NCBI RefSeq assembly: GCF_023715105.1
Contig: NZ_JAMBNO010000002.1
Coordinates: forward strand, 1-64,000
Length of the DNA: 64,000 bases
Reading direction: 5' to 3'
Source: Hydrogenophaga intermedia
Lineage (GTDB): Bacteria; Pseudomonadota; Gammaproteobacteria; Burkholderiales; Burkholderiaceae_C
The position numbers and the translations under genes were made by a program. Below are positions 5,648 to 32,386 of this stretch, in pieces. The notes under the pieces are model-generated. The model had not been told where the DNA came from. It searched no databases and saw only the letters and a program-made list of their open reading frames with translations. The number at the start of each line of letters is the position of its first letter. Positions within the stretch are counted from its first letter, which is position 1.

Positions 5648-5704
5648 CCCAGGATGATTTGGAGCCGCTATCAAGTCGAACAGGTCGAAAATCAAGTCTT
5701 CAGA

Positions 5705-5746
5705 TTGATTGACATCAATTCCCCAACACAATCACCTGGCTAACAT
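5705..5746 (+). promoter_or_regulatory. perfect FNR/ANR box with matching -10
   Basis: TTGAT-TGAC-ATCAA (5705-5718) is an exact FNR/ANR consensus dyad. A -10-like TAACAT lies at 5741-5746. If the dyad centre (5711.5) is at -41.5, as in class II FNR promoters, transcription would start at about 5753, which is the A of the next ATG. The overlapping TTGACA at 5709-5714 is too far (26 bases) from the -10 to act as a normal -35. Confidence 0.55.
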
Positions 5747-5752
5747 ATCCTC

Positions 5753-6208
5753 ATGATCTGCTTTAGACGCATCGTCGCGCAATGGGGCCGCTGGATTGCA
5801 AGCGGTTTCGTCGTGACCTTGCTCTTTTCGCAGGTCGCATTGGCGATGTATGCCTGCCCCAAGCTGGACTCGGACACCCACATCGTCTCAATGCAACTAG
5901 CAGGCATGGCCATGGAGGATGCCGCCAGCATGCCCGGCATGCCGGACTGCCACGCCATGCCGGGGACCATGGACGGCGAGGCGCCGCAGTTGTGCCGCGC
6001 ACATTGCAGCGGCGCTGGCAGGCCAGCGCCTTCATTGCAAGGCTTGGACGTCCAGACTCTCGCAGCCCAGGTGGTCTGGTTCGCGTACATGCTTCCAGCC
6101 GTGATCGAAGCCCACGCGGCAGCCGGGCAGCGCGTCGCCCATGTCCCGCCCGACCATCGAGCGGGCTTTCCACCGATCTACCTCACGTTTCAAGTCCTGC
6201 GGAATTGA
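5753..6208 (+). CDS. Met/Cys-rich secreted protein of unknown function
   Basis: A 151-residue protein I do not recognise by name. It has a signal peptide (about 1-31; RRIVAQWGRW then FVVTLLFSQVALA). The mature part is rich in possible copper ligands: Met at 47, 52, 54, 60, 63, 69 and 73, Cys at 35, 66, 81 and 85, and His at 43, 67 and 84, concentrated between 43 and 85. There is no second clear membrane helix. Its place directly before cusCBA suggests a periplasmic Cu/Ag-binding role, which is inference. It has no ribosome site; the -10 is so close that the mRNA may be leaderless. Confidence 0.7.
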   Translation: MICFRRIVAQWGRWIASGFVVTLLFSQVALAMYACPKLDSDTHIVSMQLAGMAMEDAASMPGMPDCHAMPGTMDGEAPQLCRAHCSGAGRPAPSLQGLDVQTLAAQVVWFAYMLPAVIEAHAAAGQRVAHVPPDHRAGFPPIYLTFQVLRN

Positions 6209-16957: not shown

Positions 16958-19900
16958 TCAACCGCAGGAGCCCACGTAGCCACAGGCCGTGCAGTGGTCG
17001 CACCCATCCTTGCGGATCATGGCGTGCGCGCCGCAGTCGGGGCATTTGCGGCCGGCCATCTGGCCGGGCACGGTCAGTGTTGCGGGCAATGCCGCGGAAG
17101 CGGTGTCGACTGCATCGGGTGCAGTGCCGCCGCGGCGGCGCTGCAGGATGTTCTGAACCGCGTAGGCCAGCGCCGCCACCTCGGAGTCGTGCCACATCGG
17201 GATCACCGCGCCGTCCTCGCGCGAGCGCGTGCCCAGACGCACCGGGCCACGGTCCCAGGCGACCTTGCGCATGTCGCGCAGCGCGCGCTCCAGGAAGCCG
17301 CCGCGCGCCGCCAGCGAGAGCAGGCGCATGCTGGCGGTGATCCACTGTTGCGATTCGGCGCGCTGGCCCACCGGCATGAAGAACTCGATGGCGCGCGACT
17401 GCGTGCCCTGCCCGTCCGCCGCCGGCACGGGCAGGAACGAGACCACGATGTAGGTGGTGTGGTGGCCTTCCTGCGTCCAGTACTCGATCTTTTCGGCCAC
17501 CGCATCGAGCGCACCCAGCGGGCGGCTTTCGATCACGGCACGCATCGGGTCGCCCGGAACCGCCGCAGGCTCATCGGCCGGGGCCGTGCCCGACACCGAC
17601 AGCACCGACCCCAGGATGTCGTTCGGCCGGTAGGTGGCCAAGCCCTTGAGGCCACCGCGCCAGGCCTTGAGGTAGAGGTCCTTGAAGTCCTCGAACGGAT
17701 AGTCGCCGGGCACGTTCACCGTCTTGGAGATCGAGGTGTCGATGAAGGGCTGCACCGCGGCCATCATGCCCAGGTGGCCGTCCACGCCCATCTCCAGCGC
17801 CGAGACGAAGTACGGCGGCAGTTGCTGCACGTCACCCCCGAGCGCGCGCCACAGGCGCCACGCGTGGTCGGCCACCTCGTGCTCGCGCGTGGTGCCGTCG
17901 GCCTCGCGCTTCTTGCGCGTGTAGACCCAGGAGAACGCGGGCTCGATGCCGTTGGACGCGTTGTCGGCGAAGGCCAGGCTCACGGTGCCGGTGGGCGCGA
18001 TCGACAGCAGGTGGCTGTTTCGGATGCCGTGCGTGCGGATGGCCTGCTGGATGTCGGCCGGCAGGCGGCTCGCGAAGGTGCCGGGCGCGAGGTAGCTCGC
18101 CACGTCGAGTCTGGGGAACGCGCCCTTTTCCTTCGCGAGTTCCACCGAGGCGCGGTAGGCCGCATCGCGCATGCGCTCGGCGATGCGCGCGGCCATGGCC
18201 ACGCCGGCTGCTTCGTCGTAGCGCAGCTGCAGCAGGATCAGCGCGTCGCCCAAGCCGGTGAAGCCGACGCCGATGCGCCGCTTGGCCTGCGCCTCGGCGC
18301 GCTGCTCGGGCAGTGGCCAGAAGGTGAGGTCGAGCACGTTGTCGAGCATGCGCACCTGCAGCGCCACGCTGCGCTCGAAGGCCTCGAAGTCGAACGCCGG
18401 CTCACCGCCCACGCCGAACGGGTGGCGCACGAAGCGCGTGAGGATGATGGGGCCCAAGTCGCAGCAGCCGTAGGGCGGCAGGGGTTGCTCACCGCAGTTA
18501 TGCACCACCAGACCGTTGGCGTCGAAGGCGTGCACGTCGTCCACGGTCACGTCGTACACCGCTTCTTCGCCATCGGGCTGGAGCGACTCGACCGTGGCAA
18601 CAAAGCGCTCGCGGTTGGGGGTGCGGCGGTAGACATCCAGCGATTCCTCCAGGCGGGCCGCCTTGTCGGTGTCGTGGAAGCCGATGCGTTCGGCGAACAG
18701 GTGCAGGTTGTCGTTGGCGATCACCAGTTCGTGCTGCGGCAGCGTGGCGTAGTCGGCAGCGCCGCCCCGGCCATCGGGCAGGCGGCGCAATCCGGCAGGT
18801 CGCCGTTCGCGGTAGATCGTGGATGCGATGCCCAGGCGCAGCAGCATGCGTTGAACCGCTTGCAGCAAGGCGGTGTCGCTCTGCGACAGGCGCACGCTCA
18901 CGCCCTTCTCCTGCGCGCCCTGCACGCTGCCATCGGCGTCGAACAGGCCGCTCAGCAGGCCTTCGCAGAAACCGGAGGAACACCGTTCCATCGCGGGCGT
19001 GATCGTCTTGTAGCCCGGTGCCATGCCCATCGATAACGCCAGATCGCGCAGCGGCGCACTGGCGAGTCGCATCTCACCGCGCCCCGCGATCGGGCGCTGG
19101 AAGCCGCGGAAATCGGCGCGGTGGTCGAGGCAGGCGGCCGCGGCCTCGGCCGCCTGCACGATGCCAGCGGCGCCGGTGGCGGCGAATACGACTGCGTCCT
19201 GCCCCACCACGCGCAACTCGGGCGCCCAGACCGACAGCACGGCCTTGTCGGCCTTGAGCGTGCCGTCGCCGATCAGCAGGCCCAGCAGGTAGCCCTGCTC
19301 GCGCGTGCCCTCACCGTCCCAGCCCTGCAGCGCGCGGTGGTTGTTGAGCACGATCTGATCGCCGGGCCGCAGACTGGCTGCTTCGGTCCAGTCCAGCTCC
19401 AGGGTGTGGCGCGTCTTGCGCGCCACGCGGCGCACGCGATGGTCGGCCGTGAGGCGCAGCGCATGGCCTTCGCGCGTGCTCAGTTTGAACACCGACTTGC
19501 GCCCGGTCGCAAAAAATCCTTCGCTGCGCAGCGCGTGGCTGCGTCCATCGACCACGGCATGAAACCGCTTGCCAACCAGTTCTTGCACGGTGCGGGGCCC
19601 TTCCTCGGTCATGACCCAGGTATCGGCCGTCACACACGGGTTGGTCGCCTCGATGCTTTCGATCGCGCGCAGGTTGTTGTCGCGGCCGATGGCGTCGATG
19701 AACAGGATGCCGGGTTCGGCGAAGTCGTAGGTGGAACGCATGATCGTGTCCCACAAGTCGCGCGCACGAACCGTCTCGTAGACCCAGCGGCCGTCGGCAC
19801 GCTGGTGGGCGCCGGCGGCCAGTTGCTCGGCACCGGGCTGGGCGCTGTGCACCAGATCCCAGTCGGCGTCGGCCAGCACCGCATCCATGAAGGCGTCGGG

Positions 19901-20530
19901 CACGGCGACCGAGACGTTGAAGTTGTTCCAGCGCCCGGGCGTGCGCTTGGCGGTCATGAACTCGCGCACGTCCGGGTGGTCGATGCGCAGCACGCCCATC
20001 TGCGCACCGCGGCGCGCGCCCGCGCTCTCCACCGTGGCGCACGATTGGTCGAACACGTTGATGTAGCTGCAAGGCCCCGAGGCGATGGACGCCGTGCCCT
20101 TGACGCGCGCGCCGCGCGGGCGGATGCGCGAGAAGTCGTAGCCCACGCCGCCCCCGCGGCGCATGGTTTCGGCAGCCTCGCGCAGAGCCTCGTAGATGCC
20201 GGGGTAGCCGCTCTCGTCGCGGCCCTGGATGCAGTCGCCCACGGGCTGCACGAAGCAGTTGATGAGCGTGGCCTGGATGTCGGTGCCAGCCGCGCTCATG
20301 ATGCGCCCGGCACCGATGCCGCCTTCGCGCAGGTGCGCCAGGAAGCGCGGCTCGAAATCGGTCCGGCGCTCGGGTGCTTCCACGCTGGCCAGCGCACGCG
20401 CCACGCGCGCAAACAACTGCTCGCGCGTGGTCTCGTCGCCCTTGAGGTATTTCTCGCGCAGCACCTCTTCGCTGATGGGCTGGGGCTCCAGCTCGGGCAG
20501 CAGTTCGCGCGCGGCGGGTTCTCGGTTCAT
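16958..20530 (-). CDS. nrdJ: class II (B12-dependent) ribonucleoside-diphosphate reductase with intein
   Basis: A 1190-codon gene: extein residues 1-298 and 679-1190 (810 residues) interrupted by a 380-residue intein. The enzyme makes deoxyribonucleotides with adenosylcobalamin as radical source and does not need oxygen. Visible motifs are T-L-I-N-C-F-V-Q-P (redox cysteine), G-G-G-V-G-Y-D-F-S, and the active-site loop N-P / C-G-E-Q-P-L split by the intein, whose Cys679 is the expected thiyl-radical cysteine. A Zn-ribbon-like tail follows (C-P-D-C...C-D-H-C-T-A-C). AGGAA precedes the ATG. It begins 15 bases after the carbonic anhydrase stop and is apparently the distal part of the nar operon. 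Confidence 0.93.
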   Translation of the reverse strand: MNREPAARELLPELEPQPISEEVLREKYLKGDETTREQLFARVARALASVEAPERRTDFEPRFLAHLREGGIGAGRIMSAAGTDIQATLINCFVQPVGDCIQGRDESGYPGIYEALREAAETMRRGGGVGYDFSRIRPRGARVKGTASIASGPCSYINVFDQSCATVESAGARRGAQMGVLRIDHPDVREFMTAKRTPGRWNNFNVSVAVPDAFMDAVLADADWDLVHSAQPGAEQLAAGAHQRADGRWVYETVRARDLWDTIMRSTYDFAEPGILFIDAIGRDNNLRAIESIEATNPCVTADTWVMTEEGPRTVQELVGKRFHAVVDGRSHALRSEGFFATGRKSVFKLSTREGHALRLTADHRVRRVARKTRHTLELDWTEAASLRPGDQIVLNNHRALQGWDGEGTREQGYLLGLLIGDGTLKADKAVLSVWAPELRVVGQDAVVFAATGAAGIVQAAEAAAACLDHRADFRGFQRPIAGRGEMRLASAPLRDLALSMGMAPGYKTITPAMERCSSGFCEGLLSGLFDADGSVQGAQEKGVSVRLSQSDTALLQAVQRMLLRLGIASTIYRERRPAGLRRLPDGRGGAADYATLPQHELVIANDNLHLFAERIGFHDTDKAARLEESLDVYRRTPNRERFVATVESLQPDGEEAVYDVTVDDVHAFDANGLVVHNCGEQPLPPYGCCDLGPIILTRFVRHPFGVGGEPAFDFEAFERSVALQVRMLDNVLDLTFWPLPEQRAEAQAKRRIGVGFTGLGDALILLQLRYDEAAGVAMAARIAERMRDAAYRASVELAKEKGAFPRLDVASYLAPGTFASRLPADIQQAIRTHGIRNSHLLSIAPTGTVSLAFADNASNGIEPAFSWVYTRKKREADGTTREHEVADHAWRLWRALGGDVQQLPPYFVSALEMGVDGHLGMMAAVQPFIDTSISKTVNVPGDYPFEDFKDLYLKAWRGGLKGLATYRPNDILGSVLSVSGTAPADEPAAVPGDPMRAVIESRPLGALDAVAEKIEYWTQEGHHTTYIVVSFLPVPAADGQGTQSRAIEFFMPVGQRAESQQWITASMRLLSLAARGGFLERALRDMRKVAWDRGPVRLGTRSREDGAVIPMWHDSEVAALAYAVQNILQRRRGGTAPDAVDTASAALPATLTVPGQMAGRKCPDCGAHAMIRKDGCDHCTACGYVGSCG
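18497..19636 (-). mobile_element. LAGLIDADG intein inside NrdJ
   Basis: In-frame 380-residue insertion (residues 299-678). All splicing residues are present: Cys1 (C-V-T-A-D-T-W-V), block B T-A-D-H, C-terminal V-V-H-N with the penultimate His and last Asn, and Cys+1 of the extein. Two LAGLIDADG-like helices (L-L-G-L-L-I-G-D-G and L-L-S-G-L-F-D-A-D-G) each retain their acidic residue, so the homing endonuclease may be active. The insertion is between N-P and C-G-E-Q of the catalytic loop. Inteins in ribonucleotide reductases at such conserved sites are a known phenomenon. Confidence 0.95.
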
Positions 20531-20545: not shown

Positions 20546-21259
20546 TCAGACGGCCGGCTGGCCGTCGTGTTCGACGTACTGCAGATAGGGGCCGGTGCCG
20601 CTGCTGTTGGCGCGCGAGGCCGGCACGAAGCCGCCGGCGGCGGCGTCGAAGACGTGCACCTCGCCGTCCTCGATGACGTAGTGCCAGCCGTGCAGCGACA
20701 GGGTACCCGCTTCCACGGCGCGGCGCACCATCGGGTAGTCCATCAGGCGTTCGAGCTGCAACACCACGCTGCGCTGCTCGGTGCGCCACAGGGCCTCGGG
20801 CGACGGCCGCACCGGCAACAGGGCTTCTTGCGCGAGCTCGAGCCAGAAACGCAGGGCACGCGCTTCCTCGGGCACGCCTTCGTAGGCGGCGCGCACCGCG
20901 CCGCAATGGCTGTGGCCGCAAACCACGATGTGCTCGACCTTGAGGCTCAGCACCGCGAACTCGACCGCGGCCATGGTGCCGTGCCAGCCGCGCGATCCGT
21001 CGTAGGGCGGGATCAGCGCGCCGACATTGCGCACGATGAACAACTCGCCCGGGCCGGCGCCGGTGAGGAGGTAGGGCACGAGGCGCGAATCGGAGCAGCC
21101 GATGAACAGCGTCTTGGGGTGCTGACCCTGCGCCACCAGGTCCTGGAAGCGTTGCTGGTGGCGCGGGAAATAGTCCGCGTGGAAATCACGCAATCGCGCC
21201 AGCAGTTCATCGCCGGCGCCCTCGCCCTCCCCCGGGCCACCGGGCGCGCCGGGGTTCAT
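20546..21259 (-). CDS. can: beta-class carbonic anhydrase
   Basis: A 237-residue cytoplasmic enzyme interconverting CO2 and bicarbonate. The zinc ligands are visible: C55-S-D57-S-R and G-H-S-H-C-G-A, the beta-class Cys, Asp/His, Cys pattern. A Gly/Glu-rich N-terminal 17 residues precede the conserved domain. Its ATG overlaps the stop of the isomerase gene by 4 bases (21256-21259), so it is translationally coupled into the nar run. Supplying bicarbonate or buffering pH during anaerobic growth is inference. Confidence 0.92.
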   Translation of the reverse strand: MNPGAPGGPGEGEGAGDELLARLRDFHADYFPRHQQRFQDLVAQGQHPKTLFIGCSDSRLVPYLLTGAGPGELFIVRNVGALIPPYDGSRGWHGTMAAVEFAVLSLKVEHIVVCGHSHCGAVRAAYEGVPEEARALRFWLELAQEALLPVRPSPEALWRTEQRSVVLQLERLMDYPMVRRAVEAGTLSLHGWHYVIEDGEVHVFDAAAGGFVPASRANSSGTGPYLQYVEHDGQPAV

Positions 21260-22119
21260 TGCACCAGGGGCGAGCTCGCGCCATCGAGTGACATGCCGCG
21301 CACCTCGGCATCGCCCACCAGCAGTTGCATGAACTGACGCCAGGCGGTGGCCCGCGCCTGCAGCCCGAGTTCGTCGGCGATGCGCGGGGCCAGCGCCTCG
21401 AACGGGGGCAGCGTGCCGTTGCGCCGGCCCAGCACCTCGACGATGTGCAGGCCGTGGCGCGAATGCACCAGGCGCGGATGCACGCCCATGCCCCAGCCGC
21501 TGTCGCGCTGGTGAAAAAGCTCGTTGGCGAGTTCGGGGGCGCAGTCCTCGGGCGTGAGCCAGCCCAGGTCACCCCCCTGCGCGCCGCTCGGGCAGTTGGA
21601 CAGCGTGCGTGCCAGTTCCTCGAAGCGCCCGGGTGCGGCGTCCTTGCGCGTGAGCTCCAGCAACGCTGTCTCGGCGTGCTGCGCGAGTTTGTGCACGTCC
21701 ACCCCCGGCGTCACCGCGAACAGGATGTGCCGCACATGGCGCGCCTGCCCCACCAGATAGCGGTTGCGGTTGGCCTCGTAGTGGCGCCGGCAGGCCTCCA
21801 GGTCGGGCACGGGCAGTTGCACCTCGTCGTCGAGCATGGCTTCCACGGCGGCGCGTTGTTCGGCATTCAGCGGAGGAGCCACGCTCACGTCCTGCGCGGG
21901 CAGGCGGCCACGCTGCACCGCGGCCTGGCGCAGCAGTTCGGTGTGGGCGCGCTCCAGCAATTCGTCGGCCGATAGGCGTTCGCCCGGCCCGTGCAGGCGC
22001 ACGCCGTTGATGCTGGGGGTTTCTGTCGCGGCTTCGACGGCCACCTCGGGCTCGGCACCCGAGGCGCAACCGCAGTGACCGCTGCCGCAGCCGCCCTTCA
22101 CAGGTTCGTGTCCGGTCAT
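21256..22119 (-). CDS. parvulin-type peptidyl-prolyl isomerase, nar-operon associated
   Basis: A 287-residue protein with an N-terminal Cys/His cluster (G-C-G-S-G-H-C-G-C, about 10-18), a NifM/SurA-like helical part and a parvulin (PpiC) domain from about 120 to 235 (R-H-I-L-F-A-V...G-G-D-L-G-W-L...H-G-L-H-I-V-E-V-L). There is no signal peptide, so it is cytoplasmic. Such isomerases are regularly found after narI in beta/gammaproteobacteria and are thought to help nitrate reductase folding. The Cys cluster suggests metal or cofactor binding. The gene follows narI by 3 bases and overlaps the carbonic anhydrase gene. Confidence 0.88.
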   Translation of the reverse strand: MTGHEPVKGGCGSGHCGCASGAEPEVAVEAATETPSINGVRLHGPGERLSADELLERAHTELLRQAAVQRGRLPAQDVSVAPPLNAEQRAAVEAMLDDEVQLPVPDLEACRRHYEANRNRYLVGQARHVRHILFAVTPGVDVHKLAQHAETALLELTRKDAAPGRFEELARTLSNCPSGAQGGDLGWLTPEDCAPELANELFHQRDSGWGMGVHPRLVHSRHGLHIVEVLGRRNGTLPPFEALAPRIADELGLQARATAWRQFMQLLVGDAEVRGMSLDGASSPLVQ

Positions 22120-22122
22120 GGC

Positions 22123-22830
22123 TCAGCGCTCCCCTCGGTTGGGCAGGCCCAGGCGGCGGCTGCGCACCACCTGATACGGGCGGAACAGGTAGGCCACGGT
22201 GGCAAATCCGCTCCACACATGGACCAGTCGGGAGAACGGGAACAGCAGGAAGATCGTCATGCCCAGCACCAGGTGCACCTTGAAGGGCCAGTCCAGATTC
22301 ACCAGCCCGCTGGCGTCGGGGCGAAAGGTGACGATGCGTTGCGCCCAGTCGGACAGCGCGAGCATGACGCTGCCATCGCTGTGGCCGATGGAATACGGCA
22401 GCGTGATGAGGCCCAGCACCAGTTGCACCCACAGGATGATGAGGATGAACAGATCGGTGCGGTGGCTGGTGAGGCGGATGCGCGGATCGAAGATGCGCCG
22501 GTGCAGCAGCAGCGTGAGGCCGACGAAGCACACCGCACCCGCCACACCGCCGGCCACCACGGCGAGCAGCTGCTTCTGGCCCGGCGTGATGAAGGGCTCG
22601 TACACCCAGTGTGGCGTGAGCAAGCCCACGCTGTGGCCGAAGAACAGGAACAGGATGCCGATGTGGAACAGGTTGCTGCCCCAGCGCAACTGGCGCGCGC
22701 GCAGCAGCTGCGACGAATCGCTCTTCCACGTGTACTGATCGCGGTCGAAGCGCGCCAGACTGCCCATCAGGAACACCGAGAGGCAAACATAGGGATAGAC
22801 ATTGAAAAGGAAGTTGTGCAGCGTGTTCAC
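22123..22830 (-). CDS. narI: respiratory nitrate reductase gamma subunit (cytochrome b)
   Basis: A 235-residue membrane subunit with five helices that binds two b hemes and takes electrons from quinol for the NarGH catalytic part on the cytoplasmic side. The start M-N-T-L-H-N-F-L-F-N-V-Y-P-Y and the conserved helices with His residues (H-I-G-I-L-F-L-F-F-G-H-S-V-G-L-L-T-P-H) match NarI throughout. The length is typical (about 225-240). It overlaps narJ by 4 bases, indicating translational coupling. Confidence 0.96.
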   Translation of the reverse strand: MNTLHNFLFNVYPYVCLSVFLMGSLARFDRDQYTWKSDSSQLLRARQLRWGSNLFHIGILFLFFGHSVGLLTPHWVYEPFITPGQKQLLAVVAGGVAGAVCFVGLTLLLHRRIFDPRIRLTSHRTDLFILIILWVQLVLGLITLPYSIGHSDGSVMLALSDWAQRIVTFRPDASGLVNLDWPFKVHLVLGMTIFLLFPFSRLVHVWSGFATVAYLFRPYQVVRSRRLGLPNRGER

Positions 22831-23519
22831 AGCTGGGCTCCTTGACCGGCGGACCGGACGATTCGAACGGGTTGCGGTTGGCCGGGCCGCGCCTGGCCCG
22901 CGGTGGAGCAGCCGCCGAATACGGGCGGTTCGGCCCAGCTCTCGTCCAGCGGCTCGTCCTCGGTCACCGCCACGGGCTCGGCGCGCTCGCCCGCCAGTTC
23001 CAGCACGGCGGCCAGCACGCTGGCGTAGGGGCTGCCCTTCTTGTGCAGCGCGCTGAAGATGGCGCGCAGGATGTGCGCGGTCTCGCCCAGCAGCTCACGC
23101 GCTTCCCGCGGCGGTTGGGTGGAGGCGTATTCGAGCAGCACGCTCAGGTGGTCGGGCAGTTCGTCCTCGCGCAGCATCAGGCCGGCCTGCTCGTAGGTCT
23201 TGATGAGGTCGATCATGGCCGGACCGCGGTCGCGCGAGTCGCCGTGCACGTGCTCGAACAGGTGCAGCGAGGTGCTGCGCCCGCGGTCGAACAGCTCGAC
23301 GAACTCGGCCTCCACCGCCAGCGCGGGGCGGCGCGACAGCCGGTGCAGCAGTTGCCCGATCTCGCCGATGCGTTCACCGGACAGCGCAGCCTCGCGCGCC
23401 AGCGCCTGCACCAGCTCGCCCGCGTGTTCGCGCAGCTCGGCATCCGGGTAGCTCAGCAGCCGCGCCAGCACGCGCAGGGTGTGGGGCGCGGGTCGGGTCA
23501 GGGAAAACGGGTTCTTCAT
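22827..23519 (-). CDS. narJ: nitrate reductase molybdenum-cofactor assembly chaperone
   Basis: A 230-residue all-helical cytoplasmic chaperone of the NarJ/TorD type, which holds NarG while the molybdenum cofactor and FeS cluster are inserted and before NarI docking. The R-V-L-A-R-L-L-S-Y-P-D start and the F-E-H-V-H-G-D-S-R-D-R-G-P-A-M segment (about 80-95) are diagnostic. It sits one base after narH and overlaps narI. Confidence 0.95.
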   Translation of the reverse strand: MKNPFSLTRPAPHTLRVLARLLSYPDAELREHAGELVQALAREAALSGERIGEIGQLLHRLSRRPALAVEAEFVELFDRGRSTSLHLFEHVHGDSRDRGPAMIDLIKTYEQAGLMLREDELPDHLSVLLEYASTQPPREARELLGETAHILRAIFSALHKKGSPYASVLAAVLELAGERAEPVAVTEDEPLDESWAEPPVFGGCSTAGQARPGQPQPVRIVRSAGQGAQL

Positions 23520-23520
23520 G

Positions 23521-25053
23521 TCAGAGCTCTGCTTTGATCGGAATGGTGCGGCGCTTCTCGCTGCCGAACAGGCTGGTGTCGGTCACGCCTTCGCTGCAGC
23601 CGTTGCCGAAGCTGAAGCCGCAACCGCCCTTGACGTTGAAGGCGTTCTCCGCGTACTCGCGGTGCGAGGTCGGAATGACGAAGCGGTCCTCGTAGTTGGC
23701 GATCGCCATCACCCGGTACATGGCCTCGACCTCGCTGGCGCTGAGCTGCACCTGGTCGAGCACGGCCTGGTTGAGCACACCGTCCACGTGCTTGCTGCGC
23801 TGGTAGGCGCGCATGGCCAGCATGCGTTCGAGTGCCCGCACAACGGGTTGCGTGTCACCGGCGGTGAGGAGGTTGGCCAGGTACTTGACCGGGATGCGCA
23901 GTTGCGACACGTCGGGAATCTCGCCGTTGGCGCCCACATGCCCGGCGTTGGCGGCGGCGGTGATGGGTGAGAGCGGCGGCACGTACCAGACCATGGGGAG
24001 CGTGCGGTACTCGGGGTGCAACGGCAGCGCCACCTGCCACTCGACCGCCATCTTGTAGACCGGACTGTTGCGCGCGGCCTCCATCCAGGCGTCGGGGATA
24101 CCGTCGGCACGCGCCTGTGCGATCACGGCCGGGTCGTTCGGATCGAGGAAGATGTCGAGCTGCGAGCGGTAGAGATCGGTCTCCTGCTCGGTGCTGGCCG
24201 CTTCGGCGATGCGGTCGGCGTCATACAGCAACACGCCCAGGTAGCGGATGCGGCCGACGCAGGTCTCGCTGCACACGGTGGGCTGGCCGGCCTCGATGCG
24301 CGGGTAGCAGAAGGTGCATTTCTCGGCCTTTCCGCTTTTCCAGTTGTAGTAGATCTTCTTGTACGGGCAGCCGCTCACGCACATGCGCCAACCGCGGCAC
24401 TTGTCCTGGTCGATCAGGACGATGCCGTCTTCCTCGCGCTTGTAGATCGAGCCCGAGGGACAAGAAGCCACGCATGCCGGGTTGAGGCAGTGCTCGCACA
24501 GGCGCGGCAGGTACATCATGAAGGTGTTCTCGAACTCACCCACCATGGCCTTCTGCGCTTCCAGGAAGCCGTCGAAGTTGGCGTCCTTGCTGCGCTTGGC
24601 GAATTCGCCGCCCAGGATCTCCTCCCAGTTCGGTCCCCACTCGATCTTCTCCATGCGCTGGCCGGTGATGAGCGAGCGCGGCCGCGCGGTGGGCGCGTGC
24701 TGCATCTCGGGCGCCGACTGCAGGTGGTCGTAGTCGAAGGTGAAGGGCTCGTAGTAGTCGTCGATCTGCGGCAGCGCGGGGTTGGCGAAGATCTTCATCA
24801 GCAGCGACCACCTGCCGCCCTGACGCGGCTCGATGGAACCGTCGGCCTTGCGCACCCAGCCACCCTTCCAGCGGTTCTGGTTCTCCCATTCCTTGGGGTA
24901 GCCGATGCCGGGTTTGGTCTCGACGTTGTTGAACCAGGCGTATTCGACACCGGGCCGGCTGGTCCAGACGTTCTTGCAGGTGACGGAACAGGTGTGGCAG
25001 CCGATGCATTTGTCCAGGTTCAGCACCATGCCGATCTGTGCGCGCACTTTCAT
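23521..25053 (-). CDS. narH: respiratory nitrate reductase beta subunit (FeS)
   Basis: A 510-residue ferredoxin-like subunit carrying electrons from NarI to NarG. Four Cys groups are visible: C-I-G-C-H-T-C-S-V-T-C (N-terminus), C-E-H-C-L-N-P-A-C-V-A-S-C-P, C-R-G-W-R-M-C-V-S-G-C-P (Trp replaces a Cys, giving the [3Fe-4S] cluster as in NarH) and C-T-F-C...C-S-E-T-C. The length is normal. Its ATG overlaps the stop of the inserted cupin gene by 4 bases. Confidence 0.97.
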   Translation of the reverse strand: MKVRAQIGMVLNLDKCIGCHTCSVTCKNVWTSRPGVEYAWFNNVETKPGIGYPKEWENQNRWKGGWVRKADGSIEPRQGGRWSLLMKIFANPALPQIDDYYEPFTFDYDHLQSAPEMQHAPTARPRSLITGQRMEKIEWGPNWEEILGGEFAKRSKDANFDGFLEAQKAMVGEFENTFMMYLPRLCEHCLNPACVASCPSGSIYKREEDGIVLIDQDKCRGWRMCVSGCPYKKIYYNWKSGKAEKCTFCYPRIEAGQPTVCSETCVGRIRYLGVLLYDADRIAEAASTEQETDLYRSQLDIFLDPNDPAVIAQARADGIPDAWMEAARNSPVYKMAVEWQVALPLHPEYRTLPMVWYVPPLSPITAAANAGHVGANGEIPDVSQLRIPVKYLANLLTAGDTQPVVRALERMLAMRAYQRSKHVDGVLNQAVLDQVQLSASEVEAMYRVMAIANYEDRFVIPTSHREYAENAFNVKGGCGFSFGNGCSEGVTDTSLFGSEKRRTIPIKAEL

Positions 25054-25412
25054 GGTTGTTCTCCGGGGGCGGGGGTTTCGTGGGTGTCGACGCCGAACAG
25101 CGTCACCAGGGCCGAGCAGGCCTCAAGGGCGTACACGGCGTGGCTTTCCTCGGGTGGTATGTGGCACAGGTCGCCGGCGCGCAGCGTGAGCCGCCGGCCC
25201 ATGGCCTCGAACTCGAAGCTGCCGTCCAGGCACTGGATGACCATGCGGTCGCGCACCTTGTGGGGCGCGAGCACCTGGCCGGGCGTGAGCACGAGGCGAA
25301 AGATCTGCAGGCCGTGATCTCGAACCAGCGTCTGCGAGCGCGCGCCGGTGAGCGCCGCGCCCAGCGGGCCGGCGGCAATCACCTCGGCAGCGGCGGCGTG
25401 GGGCAATGCCAT
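25050..25412 (-). CDS. small cupin protein between narG and narH
   Basis: A 120-residue single-domain cupin (about 40-105). Cupin motif 1 is degenerate (P-G-Q-V-L-A-P-H-K-V-R-D-R-M-V-I-Q-C-L-D-G, one His only) and motif 2 is A-G-D-L-C-H-I-P-P-E-E-S-H. Metal binding is thus possible but not the classic three-His set. There is no signal peptide. It starts 18 bases after narG and overlaps narH, so it is fully embedded in the operon, where narG and narH are normally adjacent. The function is unknown; sensing or handling of nitrite/NO or help in reductase assembly are guesses from position. Confidence 0.8.
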   Translation of the reverse strand: MALPHAAAAEVIAAGPLGAALTGARSQTLVRDHGLQIFRLVLTPGQVLAPHKVRDRMVIQCLDGSFEFEAMGRRLTLRAGDLCHIPPEESHAVYALEACSALVTLFGVDTHETPAPGEQP

Positions 25413-25430
25413 GGTGGTGCTCCGCGCGCC

Positions 25431-28400
25431 TCAAGGGTTCTCGCCCTGGGCCTGGTACACCGGCGCCAGGTGGTCATCGCGTGGCGTGTCGAGCCAGTCC
25501 ACCTTGCGCATCTTGCGCACCACCACGAACTCGTCGCGGTTGGTGCCGATGGTGCCGTAGTAGTTGAAGCCGTAGCTCAGCTGCGCGTAGCCCCCGATCA
25601 TGTGGGTGGGCTTGAGCACGATGCGCGTGACCGAGTTGTGGATGCCACCGCGCACGCCGGTGATTTCGGAGCCCGGCGTGTTGATGATCTTCTCCTGCGA
25701 GTGATACATCATCACCATGCCGGGGTTCACGCGCTGGCTCACCACCGCGCGCGCGGCCACCGCGCCGTTCACGTTGAACAGTTCCACCCAGTCGTTGTCC
25801 TCGATGCCGGCGCGTTTCGCGTCGGTCTCGCTGAGCCAGATCACCGTGCCGCCGCGGTTGAGCGTGAGCATCAGCAGGTTGTCGCTGTAGGTGCTGTGGA
25901 TGCCCCACTTCTGGTGCGGCGTGATGAAGTTCAGCACGATCTCGGTGTGCCCGTTGGGCTTGCGGCCCTGCACCTCGTCGGTGGTCTTCAGGTCCACTGG
26001 CGGTCGGTAGCTGCTGAAGCCTTCGCCGAAGGCGATCATCCAGGGGTGGTCCTGGTAGAACTGCTGGCGCCCTGTGAGCGTGCGCCACGGGATCAGCTCG
26101 TGCACGTTGGTGTAGCCCGCGTTGTAGGACACGGTCTCGCTCTCGATGCCGCTCCAGGTGGGCGAGCTGATGATCTTGCGCGGCTGCGCCTGGATGTCGC
26201 GGAAGCGGATCTTCTCGTCCTCGCGGTACAGCGCCAGGTGCTTGTGGTCGCGACCGGTGGCCTTGCCCAGTGCATCCCAGGCCTTCACCGCCACGTGGCC
26301 GTTGGTCTCGGGCGCGAGCTGCAGGATCACCTCGCAGGCATCGATGTCGCTCACGATGCGCGGCATGCCCTGGGTGACACCGGCCTCCTCGGTGGTGCCA
26401 TTGAGCTGGCCGAGCTGCGTGACCTCGACGTCGGTCTTCCACGCGATACCCTTGCCGCCGTTGCCCACCTTGTTCATGAGGGGCCCAAGCGCAGTGAAGC
26501 GCTTGTAGACGTTGGGGTAGTCGCGCTCGACCACCGCGATCTGCGGCGCGGTCTTGCCCGGCACCAGATCGCACTGGCCCTTCTTCCATTCCTTCACGTC
26601 GAAGGGCTGGGCCAGTTCGGCCGGGCTGTCGTGCATCAGCGGCGTGAGCACCACCTCCTTCTCCACGCCCAGGTGGCCCACGCAGACCTCGCTGAAGGCC
26701 TTGGCGAAACCCTTGTAGATCTCCCAGTCGCTGCGGCTTTGCCACACCGGGTCCACCGCGGCGGAGAGCGGGTGGATGAAGGGGTGCATGTCGCTGGTGT
26801 TGAGGTCGTTCTTCTCGTACCAGCTGGCGGTGGGCAGCACCACGTCGCTGTACAGGCAGGTGGTGCTCATGCGGAAGTCGAGCGTGACCAGCAGGTCGAG
26901 CTTGCCTTCGGGTGCCTTGTCGTGCCAACGCACCTCGGTGGGTCGCGCGTCGTCGGGGCCGAGGTCGGTGCCTTGCACACCGCTTTCGGTGCCGAGCAGG
27001 TGCTTGCAGAAGTACTCGTGTCCCTTGCCGCTGGAGCCCAGCAGGTTGGATCGCCACACGAACAGGTTGCGCGGCCAGTTCTGCGGCGCATCCGGGTCTT
27101 CGCAGCTCATCTCGAGCGTGCCGTCCTTAAGCGCCTTGACCACGTAGTCCTTTGGGTCCATGCCGGCGGCGGTGGCGTCCTTCACCACCTGCAGCGGGTT
27201 GGTGCGCAGCTGCGGCGCGCTGGGCAGCCAGCCCATGCGCTCGGCGCGCACGTTGTAGTCGATCATGCTGCCGCCCCAGACCGACTTGTCGGCCAGTGGG
27301 CTCACGATCTCTTCGAGTCCGAGCTTCTCGTAGCGCCACTGGTCGGTGTGGGCGTAGAAGAAGCTGGTGCTGTTCTGCTGGCGCGGCGGGCGGATCCAGT
27401 CGAGCGCGAAGGCGAGCGCCGTCCAGCCGGTCTGCGGGCGCAGCTTCTCCTGGCCCACGTAGTGCGCCCAGCCGCCCCCGCTCTGGCCGATGCAGCCGCA
27501 CATCATCAGCAGGTTGATCACGCCGCGGTAGTTCATGTCGGCGTGGTACCAGTGGTTCATGGCCGCACCGATGATCACCATCGACTTGCCGCGCGTCTTG
27601 TCGGCGTTGTCGGCGAACTGCGTGGCCACGGTGACCACCTGGTCGCGCGGCACGCCGGTGATGCGCTCCTGCCAGGCGGGTGTATAGGGCGCGTCGTCAT
27701 CGAAGCTCGCCGCGCCGCTGCCCAGGCCGCGGTCGATGCCGTACTGCGCGGCCTGCAGGTCGAACACGGTGGCCACCAGCGCGTAACGCTCCTCACCGGC
27801 CTTGCCCAGGCGCAGGCGCACCGCGGGCACACGCGCGCAATTCACTTCGCCGGTGCCGTCGTTGTTGGGGAAATGCGGCGTGGTCTGGCCTCCGAAGTAG
27901 GGAAAGCCCACGTCCACCACCTCGTGGGCCTGTTCACCGTCTTCCAGCACCGAGAGCTTGAGCGTGACCTCGTCGCCGCTGCGTGCCTCCTTGTTCTCCA
28001 GGTTCCATTTGCCCGCGTCTTCGCGGCCCTCGGGACCCCAGCGGAAACCGATGCTGCCGTTGGGCAGCACCGCCTTGCCGGCGGTGTCGAAGGCCACGGT
28101 CTTCCATTCGGGGTTGTTCTTCTGGCCAAGCTTGCCGTTGAAATCGCTCGCACGCAGGTAGCGCTCGGGCACCTGCACCACGCGGCCGTCGGGCAGGGTC
28201 TTGTCCTTGAGCACCACCAGCAGGGGCAGGTCGGTGTAGCGGCGCGCGTAGTCGTCGAAGTAGCGGGAACGCTGGCCGTTCTCAGGGAAGTAGAAGCGCT
28301 TGAGCACCACATGGCCCATGGCCATGGCGAGTGCGGCGTCGGTGCCCTGCTTGGGGTGCAGCCACAGGTCGGCCAGCTTGGCGACCTCGGAATAGTCGGG

Positions 28401-29246
28401 CGTGACCGCCACCGTCTTGGTGCCCTTGTAGCGGACCTCGGTGAAGAAGTGCGCGTCGGGCGTGCGCGTCTGCGGGATGTTCGATCCCCAGGCAATGATG
28501 TACGAGCTGTTGTACCAGTCGGCCGATTCGGGCACGTCGGTCTGCTCGCCCCAGATCTGCGGGCTGGCCGGCGGCAGGTCGCAGTACCAGTCGTAGAAGC
28601 TCATGCACACGCCGCCGATGAGTGAGAGGTAGCGCGAGCCCGCGGCGTAGCTCACCATGCTCATGGCCGGGATGGGCGAGAAGCCGATGATGCGGTCGGG
28701 CCCGTGCTGCTTGATGGTGTAGACGTTGGCCGCGGCGATGAGCCGGTTCACCTCGTCCCAGCTGCTGCGCACGAAGCCGCCCATGCCGCGCACCTGTTGG
28801 TAGTCGCGCCGCGCGTCGGGGTTCTCGACGATGCTGGCCCAGGCGGCCACCGGGTCCTTGGCCACCGCCAGCGCCGCGCGCCAGCGTTGCAGCAACCGCC
28901 CGCGCACCATCGGGTACTTCACGCGGTTGGCGCTGTACAGGTACCAGGAATACGAAGCGCCGCGCGCGCAGCCGCGCGGCTCGTGGTTGGGCATGTCCCA
29001 GCGCGTGCGCGGGTAGTCGGTTTGCTGGGTTTCCCAGGTGACGATGCCGCCCTTGACATAGATCTTCCACGAGCAGCTGCCCGTGCAGTTCACGCCGTGC
29101 GTGCTGCGAACGATCTTGTCGTGCGCCCAGCGATTGCGGTAGGCGTCCTCCCAGGTGCGGTCTTCGTTGGTGACCTGGCCGTGCCCGCCGGCGAAGGACT
29201 CGCTCGGCAACTTGAAGTGCATCAGGCGGTCAAGGAAATGGCTCAT
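25431..29246 (-). CDS. narG: respiratory nitrate reductase alpha subunit (Mo-bisMGD)
   Basis: A 1271-residue catalytic subunit reducing nitrate to nitrite on the cytoplasmic face. The N-terminal FeS ligand segment is visible (H-G-V-N-C-T-G-S-C-S-W ... R-G-C-A-R-G), with a His as the first ligand as in NarG. The loop P-P-A-S-P-Q-I-W-G-E-Q-T-D-V-P-E supplies the Mo-ligand Asp. The length is close to E. coli NarG (1247). It is 36 bases downstream of narK2. No signal peptide is present, as expected for the cytoplasm-facing enzyme. Confidence 0.97.
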   Translation of the reverse strand: MSHFLDRLMHFKLPSESFAGGHGQVTNEDRTWEDAYRNRWAHDKIVRSTHGVNCTGSCSWKIYVKGGIVTWETQQTDYPRTRWDMPNHEPRGCARGASYSWYLYSANRVKYPMVRGRLLQRWRAALAVAKDPVAAWASIVENPDARRDYQQVRGMGGFVRSSWDEVNRLIAAANVYTIKQHGPDRIIGFSPIPAMSMVSYAAGSRYLSLIGGVCMSFYDWYCDLPPASPQIWGEQTDVPESADWYNSSYIIAWGSNIPQTRTPDAHFFTEVRYKGTKTVAVTPDYSEVAKLADLWLHPKQGTDAALAMAMGHVVLKRFYFPENGQRSRYFDDYARRYTDLPLLVVLKDKTLPDGRVVQVPERYLRASDFNGKLGQKNNPEWKTVAFDTAGKAVLPNGSIGFRWGPEGREDAGKWNLENKEARSGDEVTLKLSVLEDGEQAHEVVDVGFPYFGGQTTPHFPNNDGTGEVNCARVPAVRLRLGKAGEERYALVATVFDLQAAQYGIDRGLGSGAASFDDDAPYTPAWQERITGVPRDQVVTVATQFADNADKTRGKSMVIIGAAMNHWYHADMNYRGVINLLMMCGCIGQSGGGWAHYVGQEKLRPQTGWTALAFALDWIRPPRQQNSTSFFYAHTDQWRYEKLGLEEIVSPLADKSVWGGSMIDYNVRAERMGWLPSAPQLRTNPLQVVKDATAAGMDPKDYVVKALKDGTLEMSCEDPDAPQNWPRNLFVWRSNLLGSSGKGHEYFCKHLLGTESGVQGTDLGPDDARPTEVRWHDKAPEGKLDLLVTLDFRMSTTCLYSDVVLPTASWYEKNDLNTSDMHPFIHPLSAAVDPVWQSRSDWEIYKGFAKAFSEVCVGHLGVEKEVVLTPLMHDSPAELAQPFDVKEWKKGQCDLVPGKTAPQIAVVERDYPNVYKRFTALGPLMNKVGNGGKGIAWKTDVEVTQLGQLNGTTEEAGVTQGMPRIVSDIDACEVILQLAPETNGHVAVKAWDALGKATGRDHKHLALYREDEKIRFRDIQAQPRKIISSPTWSGIESETVSYNAGYTNVHELIPWRTLTGRQQFYQDHPWMIAFGEGFSSYRPPVDLKTTDEVQGRKPNGHTEIVLNFITPHQKWGIHSTYSDNLLMLTLNRGGTVIWLSETDAKRAGIEDNDWVELFNVNGAVAARAVVSQRVNPGMVMMYHSQEKIINTPGSEITGVRGGIHNSVTRIVLKPTHMIGGYAQLSYGFNYYGTIGTNRDEFVVVRKMRKVDWLDTPRDDHLAPVYQAQGENP

Positions 29247-29282
29247 GGGGTGTCTCCGTGAGGGGAAATGCGTGGGACTTGA

Positions 29283-30950
29283 TCAGGGGTTGCGGATCTC
29301 TGCGCCGCGGCGCAGGTAGAACCACCAGTTGAGGACGAGGCAGGCAGCGTAGAAAGCCGCGAAGCCGTACATGGCGAGTTGCGGCGTGCCGGCCTTGATC
29401 TGCGCGCCGATGACCACCGGCGCGACGAAGGCACCGTAGGCCGCCACGGCCGAAGTCCAGCCCAGCACCGGACCGGCCTGCTGGCGGTCGAAGATGACGC
29501 CGATGGTGCGGAAGGTGGAGCCGTTGCCGATGCCGCTGGCGATGAAGATCACCACGAACAGGCCAAGGAAGGCCACGAAGTGCTGCTCGGGCGTGGGCGA
29601 AGCGTAGGCCTGCATCATCACGTAGCCCACCGCCACCGAGGCCACCACCATCACCGCCGAGATGACCTGCGTGACGATGGAGCCACCCACCTTGTCCGAG
29701 ATCCAGCCCCCCACCGGCCGCACCGCCGCACCCACAAAAGGGCCGATCCAGGCGTAGGTGAGCGCCGAGGGCGCGTTCGGATTCTTCAAGGTGTGCTGCA
29801 TCACGCCCTGCGCATCTGGGATGTGCTGGAAGCCGAAGATCACCGTGATGGCCAGCGGCAGCACCATCGAGAAACCGATGAAGGAGCCGAAGGTGACGAT
29901 GTAGAGCGCGGTGAGCGACCAGGTGTGCTTGTTGCGGAAAATCGCGAACTGCTTGGCCACGCCCTCCTTCATCGGGCCGAAGGCGGCCAGACGCACCACC
30001 AGCAGGGCCGCCACGATGTCCAGCAGGACCGCCACCCAGATGTTGAGCAGGCCCAGCCCGGTGGGTGCCGGCAGGTAGAGGTAGAGGATGGTGATCGCCG
30101 GAACGAAGGCCAGCGTGTAGAGGTAGGTGATCCTGGCGTAGGCCATCAAGGGATGGCCGGCATCGGGCGACACCGTGCGCAGGTTGTTCATGCCGAACCA
30201 GCAGACCGCGCTCAGCGGCACCAACGACAGCAGCCAGGCGAAGCCGGCGTTCTGGATCCAGGTCGGCGTGCCGGCGGCGATCTTGCCGAAGATCCAGCCG
30301 CTGTCCTTTTGCAGCAGCATGGGTTCGCCACCGAAGCTGCCGAAGATGCCCACCGTCATCACCAGCGGAATGACGATCTGCATGGTGGTGACGCCGAAGT
30401 TGCCCAGGCCTGCGTTGAGGCCCAGCGCCGTGCCCTGCAAGCGCTTCGGGAAGAAGGTGCTGATGTTGGACATGCTGGAGGCGAAGTTGCCGCCGCCCAC
30501 GCCCGACCACAGCGCCATGAGCTGGAACACCCACAGCGGCCACTCGGGGTGCTGCAGGGCGATGCCGGTGCCGATGGCCGGTGCCAGCAGCATCGAGGTG
30601 GTGAGGAAGATGGTGTTGCGCCCGCCGGCCAGGCGCACGAAGAACGAGGCCGGGATGCGCATGGTGGCGCCCGAGATGCCCGCGATCGCGGTGAGCGTGA
30701 ACAGCTCGGCCTGCGTGAACGGGAAGCCCAGGTTGAGCATCTGCACCGTGATGATTCCCCACATGCCCCAGACCGCGAAGCCGCACAACAGCGCGGGAAT
30801 CGAGATCCAGAGGTTGCGGTAGGCGATGCGCTTGCCGGTGCTCTCCCAGAACTGCTCGTCCTCGGGGCGCCAGTCGTGGATGTCGGTGCGCGAGGCGAGC
30901 CGTTGCTCGAACGACGCGTCCGGTGTACCCGGTTGATTCGGGGTGTTCAT
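29283..30950 (-). CDS. narK2: nitrate/nitrite transporter, NarK2-like
   Basis: A 555-residue MFS transporter with twelve helices after a ~45-residue cytoplasmic tail, longer than NarK1. It has NarK family motifs: G-S-F-G-G-E, the N-S-like loop G-L-N-A-G-L-G-N-F-G-V-T and R-P-V-G-G-W-I-S-D-K. In tandem narK1-narK2 systems, the NarK2 type is usually assigned nitrate/nitrite exchange. Assignment to subtype rests on order and sequence style. It starts 6 bases after narK1. Confidence 0.9.
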   Translation of the reverse strand: MNTPNQPGTPDASFEQRLASRTDIHDWRPEDEQFWESTGKRIAYRNLWISIPALLCGFAVWGMWGIITVQMLNLGFPFTQAELFTLTAIAGISGATMRIPASFFVRLAGGRNTIFLTTSMLLAPAIGTGIALQHPEWPLWVFQLMALWSGVGGGNFASSMSNISTFFPKRLQGTALGLNAGLGNFGVTTMQIVIPLVMTVGIFGSFGGEPMLLQKDSGWIFGKIAAGTPTWIQNAGFAWLLSLVPLSAVCWFGMNNLRTVSPDAGHPLMAYARITYLYTLAFVPAITILYLYLPAPTGLGLLNIWVAVLLDIVAALLVVRLAAFGPMKEGVAKQFAIFRNKHTWSLTALYIVTFGSFIGFSMVLPLAITVIFGFQHIPDAQGVMQHTLKNPNAPSALTYAWIGPFVGAAVRPVGGWISDKVGGSIVTQVISAVMVVASVAVGYVMMQAYASPTPEQHFVAFLGLFVVIFIASGIGNGSTFRTIGVIFDRQQAGPVLGWTSAVAAYGAFVAPVVIGAQIKAGTPQLAMYGFAAFYAACLVLNWWFYLRRGAEIRNP

Positions 30951-30956
30951 GGAGGG

Positions 30957-32225
30957 TCAGCCTTGAAGTGAGAAGGGCTTGGCGTGGCTGCCCAGCACCT
31001 CGGTCTGGCGCACCTCGGTCCAGTACATCCAGATCAGGGAGACCCAGACCACGCCGTAGAGCAGCATGAAGGCGCTGGAGCGGATGCCGGTGATGTCGAG
31101 CAGCGCGCCGAACAGGATGGGCAGCACGAAGCCACCCAGGCCACCAGCCAGGCCAACGATGCCGCTGATGGCACCGATGTTGCCGGGGTAGTCGTCGGCG
31201 ATGTACTTGAAGACGCTGGCCTTGCCGAAGGCCCAGGCGATGCCGAGCACGAACATCAACGCGGTGAACATGTAGACGTTCAGGCCGATATGGAAGGTCT
31301 GTGGGCCGTTGACGGTGGTGATGGTGAACTGCGTCTGCGGGTAGCTGAGCAGGAAGAGGCAGATCCAGCTCACCCACATGACCCACCAGGTGACCTTGTG
31401 CGCGCCGTACTTGTCGCTGAGCACGCCGCCGACCGCGCGCAACACACCACCGGGCAGCGAGAAGCAGGCCGCCAGCAACGCGGCCACGCGGATGTCCAGG
31501 CCGTACTCACCGATGTAGTACTGCACCATCCACAGCGCCAGCGCCACGTAGCCGCCGAAGACGATGCTGTAGTACTGGCAGTACTTGAGCACCTTCGGGT
31601 CCTTGAGCGCCTTGAGCTGCTGCGCGAAGCTGACCTGGCTGGGCACGAGGTGCGCCGGGTCGCTGTGGCTGAACAGCCAGAACAGCACCACGGTGGCGGC
31701 CATGATCACCGCGTACACCTGCGGCACCATGGCCCAACCGAAGGCCACCAGGATCACCGGCGCCACGAACTTGTTGACCGCCGAGCCGCTGTTGCCGGCG
31801 CCGTACACGCCCATGGCCATGCCCTGCTGGCGCTTGGGGAACCAGCGCGCCACGTAAGGCGTGCCGACCGAGAACGAGCCACCCGCCAGGCCCACGAACA
31901 GGCCGATCGTCAGGAAGTGCCAGAACTGCGTGGCGTAGGCCATGAGCCAGATTGCCGGCACGGTGGCGGCCATCAGCACCGCCATCACGATGCGGCCACC
32001 GTAGCGGTCGGTCCAGATGCCCAGCGGCACGCGCACCAGCGAGCCGGTGAGCACGGGCGTGGCCATCAGCAGGCCGAACTGCGTGGCGTTGAGGTCCAGC
32101 ATCTGGCGGATCGGAATGCCGATCACGCTGAACATCATCCAGACCATGAAGCACACGGTGAAAGACCAGGTGCTCACGATCAGCACGGACCAGGCCTTGC
32201 GGGTTCTTGTGGTGTCGTCGCTCAT
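30957..32225 (-). CDS. narK1: nitrate transporter, NarK1-like
   Basis: A 422-residue twelve-helix MFS transporter, first gene of the run. It shows R-V-P-L-G-I-W-T-D-R-Y-G-G-R (MFS motif A), a nitrate signature loop (V-Y-G-A-G-N-S-G-S-A-V-N-K-F) and A-G-G-L-G-G-F-V-L-P. Type 1 NarK proteins are usually proton-nitrate symporters. Start 32225 (MSDDTTRTRK) is chosen over an upstream frame extension because TGGAG precedes it and the protein then begins at the first helix. I saw no convincing FNR or NarL box in the 160 bases upstream. Confidence 0.92.
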   Translation of the reverse strand: MSDDTTRTRKAWSVLIVSTWSFTVCFMVWMMFSVIGIPIRQMLDLNATQFGLLMATPVLTGSLVRVPLGIWTDRYGGRIVMAVLMAATVPAIWLMAYATQFWHFLTIGLFVGLAGGSFSVGTPYVARWFPKRQQGMAMGVYGAGNSGSAVNKFVAPVILVAFGWAMVPQVYAVIMAATVVLFWLFSHSDPAHLVPSQVSFAQQLKALKDPKVLKYCQYYSIVFGGYVALALWMVQYYIGEYGLDIRVAALLAACFSLPGGVLRAVGGVLSDKYGAHKVTWWVMWVSWICLFLLSYPQTQFTITTVNGPQTFHIGLNVYMFTALMFVLGIAWAFGKASVFKYIADDYPGNIGAISGIVGLAGGLGGFVLPILFGALLDITGIRSSAFMLLYGVVWVSLIWMYWTEVRQTEVLGSHAKPFSLQG

Positions 32226-32386
32226 GGGATGCGCTCCATTGACCATGACGGCGACTGTGCTTTTTCGCCCGGGCGGCGACCATCCTTCACACGGGCGATC
32301 GGCACGACGCGAAGGAACGACCCCGGGCATCCTCCGAAAGGCGTATGCCCGGGTCACACCCGCGTCACGGGCCTACCATGTGGGCC

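Follow-up and report, generated by a model that had tools for sequence, protein, structure and literature searches.

A probably active intein at the radical-cysteine codon of nrdJ in Hydrogenophaga intermedia

What is an insert of 380 residues doing directly before the cysteine on which a ribonucleotide reductase (RNR) is expected to depend, and does it serve the cell or itself? This question is raised by nrdJ, the gene for an adenosylcobalamin-dependent (class II) RNR, in the window, which is the whole stretch of 64,000 nucleotides analysed here (Hydrogenophaga intermedia, contig NZ_JAMBNO010000002.1, positions 1 to 64,000). An initial annotation had described the insert as an apparently active intein and had proposed that its splicing may act as a redox-sensitive switch on anaerobic dNTP supply.

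Anatomy of the intein and its host gene

The coordinates given for the insert in the initial annotation are exact, though it had left unstated that the gene lies on the minus strand (Table 1). Translation of that strand gives 380 residues in frame with no stop, starting with CVTADTWVMT and ending with DANGLVVHN. The host open reading frame of 1190 residues can be assigned by profile search, as it matches the class II model TIGR02504 (NrdJ_Z) with 544 bits, above the cut-off, and both PF02867 and PF00317. The insert divides this protein exactly between N-P and C-G-E-Q, the N-terminal flank reading ...EATNP and the C-terminal flank CGEQPLPPYGCC. The extein N-P-C aligns with residues 320-322 of Thermotoga maritima NrdJ (1xje), Cys322 of which we take to be the cysteine that carries the thiyl radical. 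Since these residues align, the first cysteine of the C-extein is predicted to be at once the splicing Cys+1 and the radical cysteine, as had been proposed. The unspliced precursor should be inactive, with the loop bearing the radical cysteine broken, and we accept the earlier statement to that effect. The predicted spliced product has 298 + 512 = 810 residues, in agreement with the lengths first given for the spliced and unspliced proteins.

Table 1 Features of the nrdJ locus (window positions)
Feature	Position	Strand	Basis
nrdJ, adenosylcobalamin-dependent (class II) ribonucleotide reductase precursor, 1190 aa	16958..20530	-	ORF; TIGR02504 NrdJ_Z; PF02867 and PF00317
N-extein, residues 1-298, ends ...EATNP	19637..20530	-	alignment to 1xje; extein and junction comparison
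Intein, 380 residues (precursor 299-678), class 1, LAGLIDADG endonuclease	18497..19636	-	profiles, alignment, AlphaFold2 model
Endonuclease domain (approximate), intein residues 115-337	18626..19294	-	motif positions; PF14528 at 226-319; 3' bound estimated
C-extein, 512 residues, begins C-G-E-Q	16961..18496	-	alignment to 1xje (Cys at 322); junction reading
narG, narH, narJ, narI, PpiC/NifM-like protein, carbonic anhydrase, directly upstream of nrdJ	20546..29246	-	gene context

All residues that define a class 1 intein are present in the insert, including a cysteine at residue 1, the TxxH of block B (T63-A-D-H66), the C-terminal His379-Asn380 and a cysteine at position +1. The first LAGLIDADG motif, GYLLGLLIGDG, starts at intein residue 115 and the second, FCEGLLSGLFDADG, at residue 223, with Asp124 and Asp235 as the catalytic-type acidic residues. 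The splice residues and the two acidic motifs described earlier are thus borne out by translation, profiles and alignment. Profile searches of the intein found Intein_splicing (PF14890, E=6e-12), LAGLIDADG_3 (PF14528, E=1.2e-24) and the intein end models TIGR01445 (1.5e-7) and TIGR01443 (5.9e-6), each above its cut-off. A genome-wide profile search gave no second PF14890 match, leaving the window intein as the only one found. The AlphaFold2 model of the intein is confident (mean pLDDT 89.7) and resembles the full-length intein-endonuclease TliVMA 7qsu (Foldseek E 2e-19; Z 27.2 over 306 residues, 3.9 A) as well as PI-SceI entries (Z 21.7-23.5); these share the two-domain fold of the model but reside in another host gene and are only about 20% identical. 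The splicing half has the HINT fold, with Z 20.4 over 132 residues (1.7 A) to the Ssp DnaB mini-intein 1mi8. The splicing domain of NrdJ-1 (8ubs) is also alike (Z 19.2, 133 residues, 1.7 A), although NrdJ-1 is a split intein according to its entry title, with a 150-residue chain and 20% identity, and the likeness concerns the splicing domain alone.

Conservation across the family can reveal whether such motifs are maintained. In an alignment of 61 members (the window and 60 further loci), C1, T63, H66, H379 and N380 are kept in all 61, Asp235 in 61 and Asp124 in 59, and the degraded splice motifs that were looked for in relatives were found in none. The N-P before and the C after the insert are invariant in the 40 of these 61 rows that were aligned with their flanks. 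Six rows had been dropped beforehand: three duplicates (L001, equal to the window; L034, taken as L009; and L021, taken as L105), two loci at contig ends (L051, in which the start of the intein is missing, and L064, in which the contig ends inside it) and L086, unreadable in one frame. The last is a cyanobacterial locus (5001-6106) whose intein region is interrupted by either a frameshift or an assembly error. The intein of L021/L105 (genome G037) has 352 residues, 28 fewer than that of the window, and retains the splice residues and both LAGLIDADG aspartates. A chance or frameshift artefact can be ruled out by the profile matches above cut-offs and the 60 further aligned members, and a degraded window intein by the presence of every splice residue in the window and throughout the alignment.

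Selection acts on the intein as well as on its host. In six indel-free comparisons (with locus L033 and five congeners), dN/dS is 0.09-0.26 in the splicing part and 0.18-0.29 in the endonuclease part, the latter being slightly higher in all six; the exteins give 0.13-0.16 against L033. Purifying selection is therefore evident on both intein domains. Since a decayed endonuclease would be expected to drift more, the low dN/dS argues that the endonuclease has not long been decayed, although selection on this domain could also reflect structural support for splicing. Together, the motifs, conservation, purifying selection and confident model suggest an intein that is complete, splices and homes. 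We therefore share the view that it is real, intact and probably active, a reading made from sequence.

The gene neighbourhood can give insight into when NrdJ is needed. nrdJ is the last gene of a one-strand run, narG-narH-narJ-narI-PpiC-like-carbonic anhydrase-nrdJ. A NarK-family-like transporter gene, with a family match below the cut-off, heads the run into nrdJ (20546-32357, minus strand); between it and narG lies an open reading frame of 718 residues (29230-31386, minus strand) without an NCBIfam match, which may not be a gene as such. The same genome encodes class I NrdA and NrdB, whereas a profile search for class III NrdD, which is positive in 6 of 14 control genomes, gave no match in it. 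NrdJ is the sole oxygen-independent RNR found and, given the class I genes and the lack of an NrdD match, is probably the anoxic RNR, so that a failure of splicing would matter under anoxia.

Distribution within the genus and beyond

The comparison with insert-free relatives that the initial annotation called for was made across 59 congeners. Seven carry an intein of the window family (type A), seven carry a second type (type B), 28 have an empty site and four have incomplete genes. Another 12 gave weak, class I-level matches alone (best E 9.8e-19 to 4.5e-18, against 1.7e-18 for the class I NrdA of the window genome itself) and one gave no match, several of these 13 being incomplete genomes. 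Thus 28 of the 42 congeners with a readable site have no insert, their NP being followed directly by CGEQ, and traceless removal of the intein would be predicted to give an ordinary host protein. Two of the empty-site loci, L019 and L020, share 89-91% identity with the window exteins and are thus no more distant than L033 (90%), the closest of the intein-bearing type A loci.

L033, from a bin titled Hydrogenophaga sp. CS4-C022, carries an intein at the same codon that is 85% identical to that of the window and has the same splice residues and LAGLIDADG aspartates. A recent exchange between the two was considered and can be ruled out, since dS is not lower in the intein (0.58) than in the exteins (0.38-0.43). 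This pair would be explained equally well by vertical inheritance and loss of the intein from L019 and L020. Across the wider sample the pattern is less orderly. The three states (A, B and empty) need 19 changes on a host tree of 60 rows, against a mean of 20.8 for shuffled states, with values as low in 30 of 200 shuffles. This tree uses 60 of 75 joined rows (N-extein identity at least 54%, C-extein identity at least 46%; one gene is present twice, as L031 and L106), chosen non-randomly through the congener search, further searches and a pattern-limited genome scan (at least 80 stretches). The intein states hardly follow descent and are scattered like those of a mobile element. The intein tree groups the window with L033 and L004 (SH-aLRT 98), a group that the host sequences reject (p-AU 7e-5), although it was picked after both trees had been seen. 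Between the window and the alphaproteobacterial locus L036, the inteins are 61% identical while the exteins are only 40-45% identical. The disagreement of intein and host trees and the empty sites in close relatives fit homing and loss. Inteins closer than their exteins, conflicting trees and scattered presence are what a horizontally moving, homing element would be expected to produce.

The type B intein occupies the same NP/C junction of nrdJ in seven loci of the genus (L010, L011, L012, L013, L014, L015 and L018) and in L022 of the same order. It is 28-30% identical to the window intein, and the three tested representatives (L010, L011 and L022) are 33-39% identical to the RNR inteins of SPbeta and Miltoncostaea. 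In all eight it ends in TGQ/C, with Gly-Gln in place of His-Asn; a viral RNR intein ending in Gln is reported to splice (PMC4031507).

Beyond the genus, a genome scan matched the search pattern in at least 80 stretches, of which at least 54 loci could be confirmed as members of the window-intein family, and a viral scan matched seven stretches with one locus confirmed. The family is found at NP/C in proteobacteria, Chloroflexota, Trueperaceae and cyanobacteria as well as in a Syntrophomonadaceae bin, a Bathyarchaeota bin and a viral contig. Several of these loci come from bins, where an individual contig may have been assigned wrongly. The host fragments examined, from five loci, best match class II RNRs, of the dimeric type in L048 and L052 and of the monomeric RTPR type in L060, L084 and L087; being fragments, most score under whole-protein cut-offs in the profile search. 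The cyanobacterial members (at least 28 loci: L054, L056, L058-L063, L065-L083 and L085) share the NP/CGE junction and are 43-51% identical to the window intein, whereas their host proteins went unmatched at 1e-5; the host type is monomeric RTPR in L060, the one profile-tested of the 28. The viral locus L087 (IMGVR_UViG_3300010379_000015, 673-1761) has a family intein that is 45% identical, at NP/C of an RTPR-type RNR, and this contig is a possible vehicle between hosts. In a separate case, a 3-kb metagenome contig titled Bordetella parapertussis (L042, CAMDXD010000485.1) holds an nrdJ with intein very near that of genome G071 (L017), and its title may be a binning label.

Phage records gave 24 matches, all below 60% identity, and the best 14 of the 24 are SPbeta-type Bacillus phages. 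The SPbeta bnrdE intein (NC_001884, annotated 'encodes putative intein') is a remote relative of the window family and also lies directly before a cysteine (FSNL/C...TGN/C), but its host is a class I RNR, it ends in Gly-Asn where the window intein ends in His-Asn, and the two are 26% identical over 407 columns. The same NL-C motif is found in the window genome's own intein-free NrdA, which reads SSNLCTEI. The cysteine of this motif, in bnrdE as in NrdA, is presumably the class I radical cysteine. With a class I intein at NL/C and a class II family at NP/C, RNR inteins of more than one class tend to sit immediately ahead of the radical cysteine, and this placement is not peculiar to the window gene. 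Related positions have been noted elsewhere: inteins and introns are described near metal-ligand and tyrosyl-radical residues of R2 subunits (PMC8772380), and a review names catalytic or ligand sites as frequent intein positions (PMC5874633). For class II enzymes, PMC4465626 reports a LAGLIDADG_3-type intein at 'aas 321-690' of the B12-dependent RNR (nrdJa) of Azotobacter chroococcum NCIMB 8003, and hints at similar inteins in beta- and gammaproteobacteria. The Azotobacter intein belongs to another genus and is likened to that of the window by its published description. An nrdJ intein at the radical-cysteine site is thus of an already known kind and is not special to this genome. Among term-matched passages of the open-library literature we found no discussion of Cys+1 as the radical cysteine in NrdJ inteins, which is a statement about those passages and not a claim that the point is unpublished.

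Selfish element, switch or relic

Any explanation of the insert must fit both its intact anatomy and its scattered presence. The proposal of the initial annotation can be stated as a redox- or NO-sensitive switch, in which oxidation of Cys1 and/or Cys+1, for example as a mutual disulfide, keeps NrdJ unspliced and dead under oxic or nitrosative conditions until the protein matures under anoxia. With nrdJ placed behind narGHJI on one strand and encoding the sole oxygen-independent RNR found, splicing might then be halted by NO or oxygen at the Cys1/Cys+1 pair, so that the supply of dNTPs under anoxia would respond to nitrosative or oxidative stress. Carriers would thereby have a conditional brake on DNA synthesis where intein-less relatives have none; we regard such a brake as a long shot. 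Both cysteines are present, and disulfides of active-site cysteines make inteins oxidation-sensitive according to a review (PMC4031507). In the case of Mycobacterium smegmatis DnaBi1, PMC6195587 describes a Cys48-Cys118 disulfide formed with H2O2 even though Cys48 is not conserved, so a non-conserved partner is not fatal to the idea. However, such sensitivity would be generic to cysteine inteins. A conserved disulfide partner was sought and rejected, as the intein cysteines of the window other than Cys1 are not conserved among the 61 members (Cys169 in 2, Cys219 in 2 and Cys224 in 8). At two other columns cysteine occurs in 29 and 30 of the 61, positions at which the window intein carries Thr and Val, and the last ten residues of the N-extein (AIESIEATNP) contain no cysteine. 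The distribution is no kinder to a switch: the site is empty in two thirds of the readable congeners, including L019, whose nrdJ also adjoins a carbonic anhydrase gene, while the carrier L033 has no match to carbonic anhydrase, PpiC, NarI, NarJ or NarH in about 4 kb upstream. Class I NrdAB is, moreover, available for growth in air. Considering the non-conserved cysteines, the insert-free congeners, the scattered presence and the similar site in SPbeta bnrdE, we find no specific support for the switch and hold it to be very unlikely. A Cys1-Cys+1 disulfide is possible, as in any such intein, and nothing found marks it as selected. In a separate observation, the 28 cyanobacterial members, L084 and L087 have a cysteine in a YDC/LDC stretch of block F, where the window has V363, and in those members it could serve the catalytic cysteines as a redox partner.

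Two further explanations ask less, or more, of the insert. Splicing may have been lost, leaving nrdJ disabled but dispensable since the class I enzyme suffices. The 12 congeners with weak class I-level matches alone hint that nrdJ may be dispensable in some lineages, although several of those genomes are incomplete; a dead intein would nevertheless hardly keep all its splice residues without a stop, with exteins and intein alike under purifying selection, and we consider this extremely unlikely. Alternatively, the intein could have been domesticated as a maturation aid that helps, for instance, with folding or with loading of the cofactor. Such a role has been suggested for the Aquifex aeolicus R2 intein, where the construct that included the intein was twice as active and had a higher iron occupancy (PMC8772380). 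Scattered presence, empty sites in close relatives and the use of this site by another, remote intein type all speak against a host function of this sort, and it seems to us the most far-fetched of the readings.

With the observed anatomy, conservation, empty sites, scattered presence, tree conflict and purifying selection on both domains, the insert is very probably a selfish mobile element residing in nrdJ, namely a class 1 intein of full length that carries a LAGLIDADG homing endonuclease. We infer its splicing, cleavage and homing, and the reason for its site, as follows. After translation, Cys1 would attack the preceding Pro298-Cys299 peptide bond, the acyl group would move to Cys+1, and Asn380 would cyclise with the assistance of His379, so that an 810-residue NrdJ with a restored radical cysteine is released. 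We expect the liberated endonuclease to cleave intein-less nrdJ at the NPCGEQ codons, and repair of the cut site would copy the intein in. The advantage of the site may be that its codons, which specify the radical cysteine, hardly vary: the target would thus endure, and an enzyme from which the intein was lost imprecisely would be dead.

Significance for the genus and the intein family

The window intein itself, belonging as it does to a known kind, matters mildly. One intein family targets a single codon, that of the class II RNR radical cysteine, in several bacterial phyla as well as in an archaeal bin and a viral contig. That two intein types share this codon within one genus is, to us, the most interesting side observation of the analysis. 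If splicing were in truth sensitive to NO or oxygen, the locus would offer a physiological case of conditional splicing in the provision of DNA precursors under anoxia. The genus, whose related species hold empty, type A and type B alleles, provides a tidy natural set in which homing, loss and any fitness cost can be studied.
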